Source: DATKZS01 sp035527835 [NCBI: bacterium]
GTDB taxonomy: Bacteria; RBG-13-61-14
DNA length: 5,281 bases
Direction: 5' to 3'
NCBI GenBank assembly: GCA_035527835.1
Contig: DATKZS010000172.1
Coordinates: 1 to 5,281, forward strand
Below are positions 1 to 5,086 of this stretch, piece by piece. Within the stretch, counting starts at the first letter, position 1; each line of letters opens with the position of its first letter. The position numbers and the translations under genes are program-made. The notes below the pieces were generated by a model. The model did not search any database and was not told the origin of the DNA. It saw only the letters and a program-made list of their open reading frames with translations.

Positions 1-138
1 TTCGTCGAGTCCGTGTTTTGCCATTGGCTTCCTTCAGATTCCGCCTCGCGGCGGACACCCTTGCCTAGGCTGGCGGTTCCGCTCACCGCGGCCCGCAGAG
101 GACTTCCACCTCCAACAGGTGCGACATGCCTGGCACAC
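1..138 (-). mobile_element. Group IIC (bacterial class C) intron, 5' part of domain I, cut by the window edge
   Basis: This is the 5' end of a self-splicing retroelement RNA, not a protein gene. Read on the minus strand it begins GTGTGCCAGGCATG, which matches the GUGYG 5' splice-site consensus. As I recall it, the Oceanobacillus iheyensis IIC intron begins almost identically (GUGUGCCCGGCAUG). Further matches follow in the same order: GGTGGAAGTCC near 107, CAAGGGTGTCCG at 63-52 and GGAATCTGAAGGAAGC at 42-27. Between the last two, a CCGCC/GGCGG stem at 54-41 closes a GCGA tetraloop. The O. iheyensis RNA has the same tetraloop on a different but still paired stem (CCGUG/CAUGG), so the helix is preserved by compensatory changes. 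The exon-binding sites, the reverse transcriptase/maturase ORF and domains V-VI would lie beyond position 1, so whether the copy is complete or mobile cannot be judged. The element sits immediately after a terminator hairpin, as expected for IIC introns. The alignment is from memory. Confidence 0.85.
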
Positions 139-379: not shown

Positions 380-3067
380 TCACGCCGCTTCCACGCTCAC
401 CGCGCAGGCCTTGAACTCGGGGATTTTGCACTTGGGGTCCAGTGCCGCGTTGGTAAGCACATTGGCGTTGGCCTCCCAGAAATGGAACGACATGAACACG
501 GTGCCGGGCGCCACGCGGTCGGTGACCCAGGCCTTGGTCGCGATCTCGCCGCGCCGGCTCCTCACCTTGATCTTGTCGCCGTCCCGGATCTTGAGCTTGT
601 TCGCGTCATCCGCGGCGAGCTCCAGGCGGTCTTCCGGGAGCAGGTCGTTAAGCCCGCTCGCGCGCCGCGTCATGGTCGAGGTATGGTACTGCTGGAGCCG
701 GCGGCCGGTGGTGAGCCAGAGCGGGTACTCGTCGCTCGGCGACTCGGCCGGCTCGGTGTGCTCGATGACCTGGAACGATCCCTTGCCCCGCGTGAAGTTG
801 CCGTCCTGGTGCAGGTACTGGGTGCCGGGGTGCTCGAGGGTGGGCTTGGGCCACTGCAGGCCGCGGACGTTCAGTTCCTCCCACTTCATGCCGGCCATGG
901 AGGGCGAGAGCGGCGCGATCTCCTGGTCCCAGATCTGGCCGGCGTCAGTGCAATGGAGGTCATAGCCCATGCGGGAGGCGAGCTCGGAGACGATCCACCA
1001 TCCGGGCTTGGCCTCGCCCGGCGCTTCCACGGCCTTGCGCACCCGGGTGACCTTGCGCTCCGTGTTGGTGTAGGTCCCGTCAATCTCGGCGAAGGTGGCG
1101 CAGGGCAGGATCACGTCCGCCATCTCCGCGGTCTCGGTCTTGAACAGGTCCATCACCACCATGAAATCGAGCTTGCCCATGGACGCCTTGGCATGGCCCA
1201 CGTCCGGCTCGGAAGCGGCCGGGTTCTCGCCGAAGCAGATGAACGCCTTGACCTCCTTGCCGAACTTGTCGAAGGCCTCGGTGATGGTGAGCCCGACCTG
1301 GTCGGAAAGCTTCACTCCCCACGCCTGCTCGAACTTCTCCTGGATCTTGGGATCGCCGACCTTCTGGTAGGCCGTGTAGACGTTGGGCAGCGCGCCCACG
1401 TCGCAGGCGCCCTGCACGTTGTTCTGGCCGCGCAGCGGGTTCAGGCCGGTCGAGGGCCGGCCGATCTGGCCGCAGAGCATGACCAGGTTGGCGAGCGACA
1501 TCACGTTGTTCACTCCGCAGGTGTGCTGGGTGATGCCCATGGTGTAGCAGACCGAGCCGTTTTGGGCCTTGGCATAGAGCGCGGCCGCGGCCTCGATCAT
1601 CTTGGCCGGCACGCCGGAGATCTTCTCGGCGTGTGCGGGCGTGTATTTTTTCAGGTGCTCTTGAAGCGCGTCAAAGCCCTCCGTGTGCTCCTCGATGAAC
1701 TTCTTGTTCGTGAGGCCCTGCGCGATGATCGAGTTCATCATGGCGTTGATGACGGGGATGTCGGTGCCGACGCGGGACCGGAGGTGGAGGTGGGCGAGAC
1801 GGGCTATGTCGGTCCGGCGCGGGTCCACCACGATCAAAGTGGTCCCCTTCTTGACCGCCCGCCGGATGATGGAGGCGATGATCGGGTGCGTCTCGGTGGT
1901 GTTGCTGCCCCAGACGATGATCACGTCCGCGCCCTCCAGCTCGAGCTGCGAGTTGGTCATGGCGCCCGATCCGAAGCTTGTCACCAGACCGGTGACGGTG
2001 GCGCTGTGTCAAAGTCGGGCGCAGTGGTCAATGTTGTTGGTGCCCAGCACGGCCCGGGTGAACTTCATGAGCGCGTAGTTTTCCTCGTTGGTGGCCTTGG
2101 CCGAGCTCGCCATCATGATCGAGTCCGGCCCCGACTTTTCCTTGATCTCCTTTAATTTGGCGGCCACCAGGTCCAGCGCCTCGTCCCAGCCCGCTTCCTC
2201 GAACTGCCGGCCCTTGCGGATCAAGGGCCTGGTCAGCCGGTCCGGGCTGTAAATGAAATCGAACCCGAACCGGCCCTTCACGCACGTGGTCCCGTAATTC
2301 GGGGCCTTGTCCTCGGATGCCTCCACGTACACCACCTTGCCGCCCTTCACGTGCAGCTCGAGCTGGCACCCGCAACCGCAGTACGGGCACGTGGTCTCCA
2401 CCACCTCCGTCTCCGCCTCCCGCGTCGCGTAGCGCGCCTTCTTATAGGAGAGCGCTCCGGTCGGGCAGGCCTGAACGCACGAGCCGCACATGCCGCAGTT
2501 GGAGTTGATGAGCGTGGTATCCAGGAAGGTCGAGATGTGCGCGTTCATGCCGCGCAAGGTCAGGTTGATCGCGCCCTGGCCCACCAGCTCGTTGCACACG
2601 CGGTAGCACCGCCCGCACATCACGCACTTCGAGTAGTCCCGGATGATGAACGGGTTGTCGTCGTCTATCGGCAGGTCATCCCGCTTGATCTCGTAGCGCG
2701 GCTTGTCAATCCGGTACTGGTAGGCGAGCCGCTGCAGCGTGCACGACCCGCTCATGTCGCAGGCCATGCAGTTGTGGTCGCCGGAGGCGATCATGAGCTC
2801 GGTCACGATCTTGCGGACCTTGTGCACGTTCTCGGTGTCGGTCCTGACGATCATCCCGTCCTTGACCTCGGTGCCGCAGGAGATGGGCAGGCCGCGCATG
2901 CCCTCGATCTCCACGATGCAGAGCCGGCAGCCGCCGTAAACCTTGGTCCGCGGGTGCCAGCACAGGTTCGGCACATCAATCCCCACCGACAAACACGCCT
3001 GCAAAACAGTCTGGCCCGGATCAACCTGGAAGGGCTTGCCGTTCACATTGATCGTGATCTTATCCAT
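380..3067 (-). CDS. fdhA: Formate dehydrogenase catalytic (alpha) subunit, selenocysteine-containing, read through UGA at 2009-2011
   Basis: This cytoplasmic Mo/W bis-MGD enzyme interconverts formate and CO2 (the family is also called fdhF). It is 895 residues long, close to the Moorella-type FdhA. A NuoG-like 2Fe-2S domain comes first (C36, C47, C50, C64). It is followed by a His-Cys cluster (H98, C100, C103, C109), two ferredoxin 4Fe-4S motifs (C148/151/154/158 and C191/194/197/201) and the active-site cluster C227-x2-C230-x3-C234...C262, with K264 in CVKGRFG. The catalytic region reads HCARL-Sec353-H354-SATVTGL. R546 in NPLRGQNNVQG lies 193 residues after Sec, the same spacing as Sec140-R333 in E. 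coli FdhF. The molybdopterin dinucleotide-binding domain is about 780-890. There is no signal peptide. ATG 3067 is preferred over TTG 3070 because AGGGAGG lies 6 nt upstream. Standard calling would split it into two ORFs (3070-2009 and 1984-380). No diaphorase or hydrogenase subunit is adjacent, so the electron partner is unknown. Confidence 0.96.
1980..2011 (-). promoter_or_regulatory. Selenocysteine UGA codon and bacterial SECIS hairpin
   Basis: The in-frame TGA (2011-2009) is followed by a hairpin at 1996-1980 with a perfect 6-bp stem, GTCACC / GGTGAC, closing a GGTCT loop. In E. coli fdhF the same GGUCU apical loop binds SelB, and as I recall that sequence the loop starts 18 nt after the UGA. 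Here it also starts 18 nt after the UGA. The stem sequence differs from E. coli but still pairs. The protein reads on without interruption into the conserved family sequence, so this is recoding and not a nonsense mutation. Insertion needs SelB, tRNA-Sec (selC), SelA and SelD, none of which is in the window. Confidence 0.95.
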
Positions 3068-3073
3068 CAACTT

Positions 3074-3080
3074 CCTCCCT
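3074..3080 (-). promoter_or_regulatory. Ribosome binding site of fdhA
   Basis: AGGGAGG on the minus strand lies 6 nt before ATG 3067. This near-perfect Shine-Dalgarno sequence decides the start in favour of the ATG over the in-frame TTG one codon upstream, which would be only 3 nt away. Confidence 0.8.
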
Positions 3081-3244: not shown

Positions 3245-3319
3245 GTGGGAGGCAGCCTCCGGCTGGCGACTCTTCGGTTTTTCCGGGAGTATAGTCGCCC
3301 GGCGGAGTCGGCCTCCCAC
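3245..3319. repeat. REPIN-like inverted repeat upstream of fdhA
   Basis: Two inverted arms (3245-3271 and 3293-3319) both start with GTGGGAGGC and end with GGCGACT when read inward. Between these ends each arm can fold on itself (CAGCC-TCC-GGCTG in the left arm). The arms differ internally, so pairing across the 21-bp centre is imperfect. The GTGGGAG head and the GCGA-Y tail are shared with the element at 178-318, which suggests two variants of one REP family. It lies about 70 bp upstream of the fdhA -35 box. Confidence 0.65.
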
Positions 3320-3330
3320 GTTATTTTCAG

Positions 3331-3543: not shown

Positions 3544-3592
3544 TTAACCCAGGACTTCCGCCCTGGGTTAACGAAGTACGCCCCGGCGGGGC
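3544..3592. repeat. Double palindrome: TTAACCCAGG hairpin plus GCCCC hairpin
   Basis: TTAACCCAGG (3544-3553) and CCTGGGTTAA (3562-3571) form a perfect 10-bp stem with an 8-nt loop. Eight bases later GCCCC-GGC-GGGGC (3580-3592) forms a second hairpin. The paired arrangement suggests a composite dispersed repeat rather than a terminator, since no T-tract follows in either direction. Confidence 0.55.
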
Positions 3593-3609
3593 TGAAGAGA
3601 ACCTCCATC

Positions 3610-3692
3610 ATCCCTCCGGGATTCTAGTGGTCAGGGCCGACGGCCTCCCAGCGATGAATCGCCGGGCTATTCTCCGCGATCCCTCCGGGATC
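3610..3692. repeat. Repeated TCCC-TCC-GGGA palindromes
   Basis: The same small palindrome occurs twice in direct array: ATCCC-TCC-GGGAT (3610-3622) and GATCCC-TCC-GGGATC (3678-3692). Between them are a GGCC-GAC-GGCC palindrome (about 3635-3645) and GCGAT-GA-ATCGC (3651-3662). No credible gene spans the region. Confidence 0.45.
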
Positions 3693-3775: not shown

Positions 3776-5086
3776 TCATCCATGTCTTCGCAACCAGTCC
3801 TGGATTATTGCGATGTCGTCATGCTGGTGGTTTTTCTCGTAGATGGTTTGGGCTTCATCCAAATAGCGCTTGATTTCTTCGAGGCGCGCGGCCTCGGCCG
3901 GACCTTTGTCCTTGACCTGTTTCCAAAGGATGAAGCCCAGATTGGCGAGCGCCCGGGCATAATCCGGAGTGTCGGCGGGCAGGGAGGCCAGGGCTTTCCG
4001 GACCAGGGCTTCGGCCTCTTTGAGGGCCTCCGTTTTTTTCGGCTTCAGGTTTTCGCCGTGAACGCATATGGTAATGGCCTCGCCAAGGCTGAGCCAGATC
4101 AGGGCTTGCCCGGCCGGGTCGCCGCCGGCCTTGATTGAGGCGTCCAGGGCGTCGCGCAAGAGCGGGATGCTGTCCTTGATCAATTTCCAGTTCACTTTCT
4201 GAAGCGTGGCGGCGCGTCCGGCGAGGAGCATGGCTTCGGCCCGATAATATTTGACCAGGGAAAGCTCCGCCGAGGACAGGCTTTGCTTCTTGATCAATTT
4301 CTCGCTCTTTTGCATGACGCCCGCGAGGATTTTTTTCTTGTTGCTGTGCGGATTGGATTTGACCAGGTCCAGGTCGGCGCCCAGGTCTTGGATGGCTGCC
4401 GGGACCGGTCTCGAATCGCCGCCCCGGGCCTGGGCGCGAGGGCCATCCGGGGCCTGGGCTTTCCGGGCCGCGGCGGGAAAGGGCCAGAGGGCGTAGAGTT
4501 TGTCCTGATCCTGTACGCCCCGGAAATGCACCTCATACGGTCCCTGGCATTCAAAGTTGGCCTGGGAAACGTTGTTCCACACCGCCCGGGTGACGAAAAC
4601 GTAATGGTGGTTCCGGCCCGGTTTCAGGTTTTTCTCGGCCAGCCGCATTAAAAAATCCTTGCCGGCGCTTTCGCAACGCTGGGCCCGGTTGATCACGGGG
4701 CCTACATAGTGGTCCTGCCATTTGTAATATTTTCCGAAATCAATCCCGGTCCGCAGGATGTAAATCGCCCCGGGCTCCCGGCCGGCTTTTTTCAGGAGCG
4801 AGGCCCGGACCGGCTCCCATTCCTCGATCAGCGCCGCGGCCAGATGGATGGCGTTGATCACGTTCCTGAAAATGATCAGGAACCCGTCCCCCGTGAAGTT
4901 GCCGATCTCCCCCTGGCAGTCCTCCCGGCGTAACAGGGAGCGCAGGCAATCCTGGAGCCGGTTCAAGGCCTCCTCGGCCACCTCGTGATAGTTTTGCCAC
5001 ATAAAGGTGGATTCCTGGAGGTCCAGAAAAAGGGCCGCGCCGTAACTCTCGGCGGAGTCAGGGTATCCATTTTTACGGTCAGCCAT
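3776..5086 (-). CDS. Class III nucleotidyl cyclase-domain protein with helical TPR-like C-terminus
   Basis: 436 residues, soluble, with no signal peptide or membrane segment seen. The N-terminal half (about 14-205) is a cyclase homology domain. D22 (FLDLQ) and D67 (NFTGDGF) occupy the metal-binding positions. RTGIDFG is at 112-118, and GPVINRAQR (129-137) supplies the transition-state pair N133 and R137. The position that is usually Lys in adenylate cyclases (K-x-x-GD) is N63, and the second base-contacting position, usually Asp or Thr, aligns with H126. The substrate (ATP, GTP or other) is therefore uncertain, and loss of activity is possible. A Pro/Ala-rich linker (about 205-232) leads to helices at 245-436 with TPR-like repeats (for example 353-370 and 375-395), likely a protein-interaction module. 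ATG 5086 is chosen because AAGGGGA lies 7 nt upstream. The gene is co-directional with fdhA but 700 bp away and probably transcribed separately. No partner gene points to a pathway. Confidence 0.85.
   Translation of the reverse strand: MADRKNGYPDSAESYGAALFLDLQESTFMWQNYHEVAEEALNRLQDCLRSLLRREDCQGEIGNFTGDGFLIIFRNVINAIHLAAALIEEWEPVRASLLKKAGREPGAIYILRTGIDFGKYYKWQDHYVGPVINRAQRCESAGKDFLMRLAEKNLKPGRNHHYVFVTRAVWNNVSQANFECQGPYEVHFRGVQDQDKLYALWPFPAAARKAQAPDGPRAQARGGDSRPVPAAIQDLGADLDLVKSNPHSNKKKILAGVMQKSEKLIKKQSLSSAELSLVKYYRAEAMLLAGRAATLQKVNWKLIKDSIPLLRDALDASIKAGGDPAGQALIWLSLGEAITICVHGENLKPKKTEALKEAEALVRKALASLPADTPDYARALANLGFILWKQVKDKGPAEAARLEEIKRYLDEAQTIYEKNHQHDDIAIIQDWLRRHG

Follow-up and report, generated by a model that had tools for sequence, protein, structure and literature searches.

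In E. coli, SelB with Sec-tRNA binds a hairpin and decodes UGA as selenocysteine (Sec). According to a review (PMC13188914), no other selenoprotein family of bacteria is as widely distributed as FdhA, and the same source describes binding of the active-site metal by selenium in FdhA. Replacement of Sec by Cys in FdhA is documented as well, seven events being given in Table 1 of PMC1794560. Misannotation of selenoprotein genes was called "almost universal" in a 2005 paper (PMC1088965).

Here we describe an FdhA of this well-known Sec-containing kind, encoded on the minus strand of a 5,281-nt stretch of DNA (hereinafter, the window). We have very little doubt that positions 380–3067 form one gene, fdhA, whose UGA codon 353 specifies Sec through SelB and a GGUCU hairpin, and that the product is a Mo/W formate dehydrogenase. 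Read through, the locus encodes an apparently intact CO2/formate selenoenzyme; by translation table 11 it is two fragments. The gain is a correct annotation, together with a collection of homologs, having either Sec or Cys, that shows the constraint imposed by the SECIS element.

The reading frame of fdhA

The initial annotation placed a UGA between the HCARL and HSATVTGL motifs, and an in-frame TGA is indeed found there on the minus strand (2011–2009). It is the sole break in the frame from ATG 3067, the next stop being the TGA at 380–382. The likely start is this ATG, behind a Shine–Dalgarno-like GGAGG (3074–3078, minus strand) situated 6 nt before it; this choice makes the UGA codon 353 and the protein 895 residues long. 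The gene is longer than the extent proposed initially, 1980–3067, and runs from 3067 down to 380. Third codon positions vary most on either side of the TGA, as seen in comparison with four relatives. The codon (2009–2011) aligns with TGA and Cys codons of homologs and is very probably decoded as Sec353, judging by the sequence comparisons below.

Table 11 yields an upstream ORF at 2009–3070 (minus strand, 353 aa, starting at an upstream TTG) and a downstream ORF at 380–1984 (minus strand, 534 aa, starting at GTG). Thus the expectation that a standard annotation would split the gene holds for table 11, but not for the Cetobacterium record (L023), where one CDS (3007–5667) spans the TGA (site 4042). 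The two ORFs could be taken for two separate genes translated apart, one for a NuoG-like iron-sulfur protein and the other for a headless molybdopterin enzyme, but the GTG at 1984 sits only 8 codons past the TGA, all 57 other TGA sites identified in homologs lie each within one single-frame tblastn alignment, and the break falls inside one catalytic domain, as follows from the family model described in the next section. We regard two genes as extremely improbable.

The protein family and the active site

The joined protein scores 822.7 bits with TIGR01591, covering the complete model (positions 1–672 of 672), above the curated cut-off of 666.25. Taken apart, the halves score 178.5 and 616.4 bits, each below the cut-off, and cover positions 1–128 and 130–672, respectively. 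Since the halves are parts of one family model and there is no other stop before 380–382, the continuity of the frame is beyond chance. Together with the hairpin and the alignment of TGA and Cys codons, this bears out the initial proposal of a single selenoprotein gene split by UGA.

The N-terminal part (approximately residues 1–215; 2423–3067, minus strand) is a NuoG-like electron-transfer module with 2Fe-2S, NADH-G type 4Fe-4S and further 4Fe-4S clusters, matching Pfam Fer2_4, NADH-G_4Fe-4S_3, Fer4_Nqo3 and Fer4. It is followed by the Mo/W-bisPGD formate dehydrogenase catalytic part (approximately residues 221–895; 383–2407, minus strand), matching Pfam Molybdop_Fe4S4, Molybdopterin and Molydop_binding. 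The catalytic residues are U353, H354 and R546, corresponding to U140, H141 and R333 of E. coli FdhF. The assignment of the UGA to the catalytic Sec/Cys position agrees with the alignment, where this column holds 57 other TGA sites and 31 Cys sites; it is X in 9t1s, an F420 formate dehydrogenase. The distance from Sec to Arg is 193 residues in both proteins, exactly as had been claimed.

By its predicted activity, the window FdhA is a formate dehydrogenase using Mo or W and bearing a NuoG-like iron-sulfur module at the N-terminus. In the proposed mechanism, the selenium of Sec353 would be a metal ligand in the active site, formate and CO2 would be interconverted at Sec353, His354 and Arg546, and electrons would pass through the N-terminal clusters to an acceptor encoded outside the window. 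Judging by its NuoG-like module, the enzyme may be linked to NAD or ferredoxin; no gene of a partner subunit was recognised within the window. What the sequences show is the frame, the homology, the hairpin and its association with TGA rather than Cys, and sel genes in most of the TGA relatives studied; Sec insertion in the window organism, the metal, the direction of the reaction and the electron partner are inferred.

The hairpin downstream of the UGA codon

Counting from the U of the UGA, nucleotides 16–21 form a perfect 6-bp stem with nucleotides 27–32 (GUCACC/GGUGAC), enclosing the loop GGUCU (1986–1990). This hairpin (1980–1996, minus strand) is the apical part of a bacterial SECIS (bSECIS) element as judged by pairing and by comparison with homologous sites, and thus a search for SECIS, proposed as a check at the outset, gave a SECIS-like structure at the right place. 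SelB with Sec-tRNA(Sec) would bind the hairpin, with its GGUCU loop 18 nt past the UGA, and Sec would be delivered at UGA 353 in place of release.

The bSECIS constraints given in a figure legend of PMC13188914 are a loop of 3–9 nt with G in its first two positions, a stem of 4–16 bp, spacing of 16–37 nt, and a minimum free energy of at most −7.5. The window hairpin agrees with all of them, with a 5-nt loop starting with GG, a 6-bp stem, the spacing of 18 nt, and −8.0 kcal/mol for nucleotides 16–32 or −10.5 for nucleotides 1–45. Taken alone, these constraints discriminate weakly: among the 166 TGA trinucleotides on either strand of the window that have 60 bases on the 3′ side, 29 are followed by a looser SECIS-like geometry, and another fold is favoured over nucleotides 4–48. 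Hence only the exact geometry (16–21 with 27–32) is informative, and it is observed at a single TGA out of 166, namely codon 353.

Two other criteria were rejected as proof of SECIS. The first is folding energy. The 45-nt fold of the window has no extra stability compared to shuffled sequences (z = 0.38), and the probability of the hairpin pairs depends on the folded stretch, being about 0.9 for nucleotides 1–45, 0.65 for 1–60, and about 0.11 for 4–48, where a competing fold beats the hairpin. The second is the Rfam score taken alone. The SECIS_3 model (RF01989) aligns at its full length to 1956–2014 (minus strand), but its score of 22.2 bits is far below the gathering threshold of 63 (E-value 0.18 in the window, 0.0049 in 141 bases, and 1.9 in a search of 55,952 bases). 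This score is the lowest among the eight TGA loci compared, of which six others, not counting E. coli, also are below the threshold (51.3 to 30.3), while E. coli fdhF passes SECIS_2 (87.1 against 70). One of four Cys loci, L013, outscores the window with 25.2 bits; the remaining three (L003, L017, L019) have no SECIS match at E ≤ 3.

Selenocysteine and cysteine sites in homologs

Scanning genome contigs yielded 21 loci, and searches of 4, 199, 199 and 1 genomes by phylum or class added further ones, loci being taken for only part of the matches. We also included seven stretches with a reported TGA copy, a longer stretch surrounding the gene from the nearest relative found (G032), E. coli fdhF, and one Cetobacterium plasmid locus. 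The tblastn search with the window protein produced 111 alignments across the site, 94 of them unique by downstream DNA; five of the latter (L028, L030, L031, L036 and the second match in L097) were dropped as representing a wrong site. The site codon is TGA in 58 unique sites, the window included, and TGC or TGT (Cys) in 31; as the stretches with reported TGA were added on purpose, this ratio is not a frequency, and the sites, being related sequences, are non-independent. Two further fdhA-like frames, G279:C1:884465-885322 (extra stops: one TGA and three TAA) and G110:C490:14589-15467 (one TGA and one TAG), are perhaps decaying copies.

The hairpin follows TGA rather than Cys. The loop sequence GGTCT is present at the same place in 54 of 58 TGA sites, again counting the window, and in 4 of 31 Cys sites. 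This bias persists among sites encoding Gly-Leu at this place (54/58 versus 4/26), and hence reflects codon choice, not the protein sequence alone. The full 6-bp stem is formed in 50 TGA sites and four Cys sites, and the loop and the stem occur together in 50 and two sites, respectively. Eight TGA sites lack the stem, among them E. coli, which has its stem in a different register; no full stem appears in TGA sites when the 3′ arm is shifted by 1–3 nt. Similarly, the mean probability of the four upper pairs, calculated for nucleotides 1–45, exceeds 0.5 in 50/58 TGA sites and 2/31 Cys sites, and equals 0.90 in the window.

These data bear on two further explanations. The 31 Cys homologs, and the fact that one base separates TGC or TGT from TGA, would fit a recent nonsense mutation or a sequencing error in a Cys codon, the gene being broken or misread. 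But a chance change provides no reason for the GGUCU loop and the perfect stem, a pair of features seen in only two of the Cys sites, and the codon-position pattern is alike in the downstream and upstream halves. Moreover, the nearest relatives found, L110 and, over the part it covers, L020, carry TGA, rather than Cys alongside other disabling mutations in the window copy. We consider such an event very improbable.

UGA may also be recoded without selenium, by suppression or by a changed code, as it is a Trp or Gly codon in some bacteria. This has a minute probability, given that the hairpin tracks TGA and not Cys, that the homologous column is Sec or Cys, and that fdhA itself ends with TGA (380–382), so TGA is probably also a stop here. 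Insertion of Sec by SelB thus is our preferred reading of codon 353.

One stem position deserves a separate description. The pair 19–29 is A-U in the window, G-C in 48 of 58 TGA sites, and G-U in five, four of which have an otherwise complete stem. The A-U pair entails Thr for Ala before Gly-Leu and Val for Ala after it, that is, VTGLV instead of the common VAGLA; a compensated stem change would explain this replacement in the window FdhA. The sixth residue past Sec or Cys is Ala in 55/58 TGA sites and 19/31 Cys sites. The SECIS stem may have steered the protein sequence, with RNA pairing fixing residues near the active-site Sec that vary more in Cys homologs, and G-U as a possible bridge between the pairs; on these comparisons we hold the chances for and against to be equal.

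Covariation and phylogeny

For 28 TGA sites, the window excluded, the stem covariation score and the number of paired cells were reached in none of 500 shuffles, whereas two of the five covariation measures were ordinary, being reached in 100 and 187 shuffles. A covariance model (R1) built from 28 TGA sites, again leaving the window out, assigns 42.0 bits to the window and 49.4 bits to the Cys site L077. The window is 26th of 61 matches, behind L077 and 24 of 29 untrained TGA sites, some of the latter being near copies of training rows. As a classifier of Sec and Cys sites R1 is weak, though the direction is as expected, and it was set aside.

A tree of these 89 sites places the window together with L110 (from G032) and L062, both having TGA (support 95/91). 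The Sec/Cys label changes 11 times on this tree, and at least six changes are forced by supported branches. In six independent Sec/Cys pairs on supported branches, the loop accompanies Sec in three to five and never opposes it (median p = 0.06). For the full stem there is agreement in three or four, with one opposing in a few of the pairings (median p = 0.125); both comparisons are underpowered. A small genome group (L010: Coatesbacteria) contains close FdhA relatives of which some have Sec and others Cys (L027 from G009 versus L024–L026); this looks like a recent switch and could help to study how SECIS is gained or lost.

Selenocysteine machinery in related genomes

Genes for Sec insertion are present in most of the TGA relatives examined. 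Of the 19 genomes in the first set, 11 have SelB above the cut-off, including all eight with a TGA locus from the contig scan and G016, where L017 carries Cys and L112 carries TGA; among those where only Cys copies were seen it is found in two of nine (G008, G017), and in G019 (L021) the site is not covered. In the second set, picked from the searches by phylum and class, SelB is found in 11 of 14 TGA genomes, the exceptions being G174, G181 and G029, and in three of six with only Cys copies seen. Overall this makes 20/23 versus 5/15 (Fisher p = 0.0013), where the Cys-only label means that Cys copies were seen and may hide Sec copies, genome completeness is unstated, and the limit of 1e-75 applied to part of the second set could overlook a SelB whose match is fragmented (two TGA genomes and no Cys-only ones were re-examined at 1e-20).

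The tRNA-Sec scores more than 60 bits in 8/8 TGA genomes and two of nine others (again G008 and G017) of the first set, with only 49 in G016, and in 11 of 12 TGA genomes of the second set. SelA is present in 12/13 TGA genomes, and SelD in 9/10, versus 0/7 with only Cys copies seen, a set to which G008 and G017 do not belong. The exception in the last three cases is the TGA-bearing G181, in which SelB, tRNA-Sec, SelA and SelD all were not found. The nearest relative found, G032, has selA, selC (tRNA-Sec, 72.1 bits), selD, and three selB. The latter, SelB-like genes over the cut-off on C156, C76 and C10 of the 5.7 Mb genome, reflect either a duplicated SelB or a mixed assembly.

Other features of the window

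Downstream of fdhA, a group II intron is represented by its 5′ part (1–55, minus strand; RF02001, 45.8 bits, gathering threshold 32), which runs off the window edge. A long inverted repeat just past the fdhA stop (195–289) may be either a terminator or a mobile repeat of small size; it matches an miRNA model below the gathering threshold because it is a long hairpin. Upstream of fdhA, a second inverted-repeat region was noticed by eye at about 3245–3320, with arms GTGGGAGG and CCTCCCAC. Two copies of the Acido-Lenti-1 RNA (3548–3593 and 3647–3692, plus strand) score 34.1 and 33.9, just below the gathering threshold of 37; matches to it occur in four of 11 genomes searched (21 in G032, 27 in G016, nine in G005, three in G009). 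G032 was taken from the phylum to which G016 belongs, but the matches in G005 and G009, and the ability of fdhA to pass between lineages, speak against reading the host of the window from this RNA. Finally, the ORF at 3776–5086 (minus strand, 436 aa) has motifs LFLDLQEST and GDGFLIIF and by eye resembles a nucleotide cyclase domain with helical repeats; neither Pfam nor NCBIfam gave a significant match to it (GGDEF, E = 0.16; TPR_11, E = 0.088).

Comparison with known systems

In the domain order, length and catalytic residues, the window FdhA is the same as the FdhA/FdsA type with the NuoG-like N-terminus. It aligns with 6tg9_A over residues 7–895, with Cys in 6tg9_A at the site of Sec353. 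Apart from E. coli, the homologs with TGA share 42–58% identity with the window FdhA by tblastn. The nearest relative found, FdhA of G032 (L110), has 59% identity over residues 1–894, TGA at the site, and a hairpin of the same shape with a different stem, GUCGCG/CGCGGC versus GUCACC/GGUGAC. Its gene neighbours, judged by eye, differ from those in the window; within 16 kb around it they include a small 4Fe-4S protein, and no NuoF-like gene was seen there by eye.

E. coli FdhF is 41% identical to the window FdhA (280 of 685 alignment columns). Having 715 residues, it lacks the N-terminal module and aligns from residue 223 of the window protein. An alignment with it was envisaged from the start, and the two proteins agree in the Sec/Cys column, sharing the Sec-His pair and Arg at +193. 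The GGUCU of the E. coli fdhF SECIS is equally far from the UGA, and nucleotides 17 and 22–24 (U and GGU) are identical to those in the window. According to PMC8659212, U17 and G23 contact SelB in E. coli, U17 being bulged. Both nucleotides are present in the window, but U17 is paired, and the bulged stem of E. coli, set in its other register, corresponds here to a continuous stem of 6 bp.
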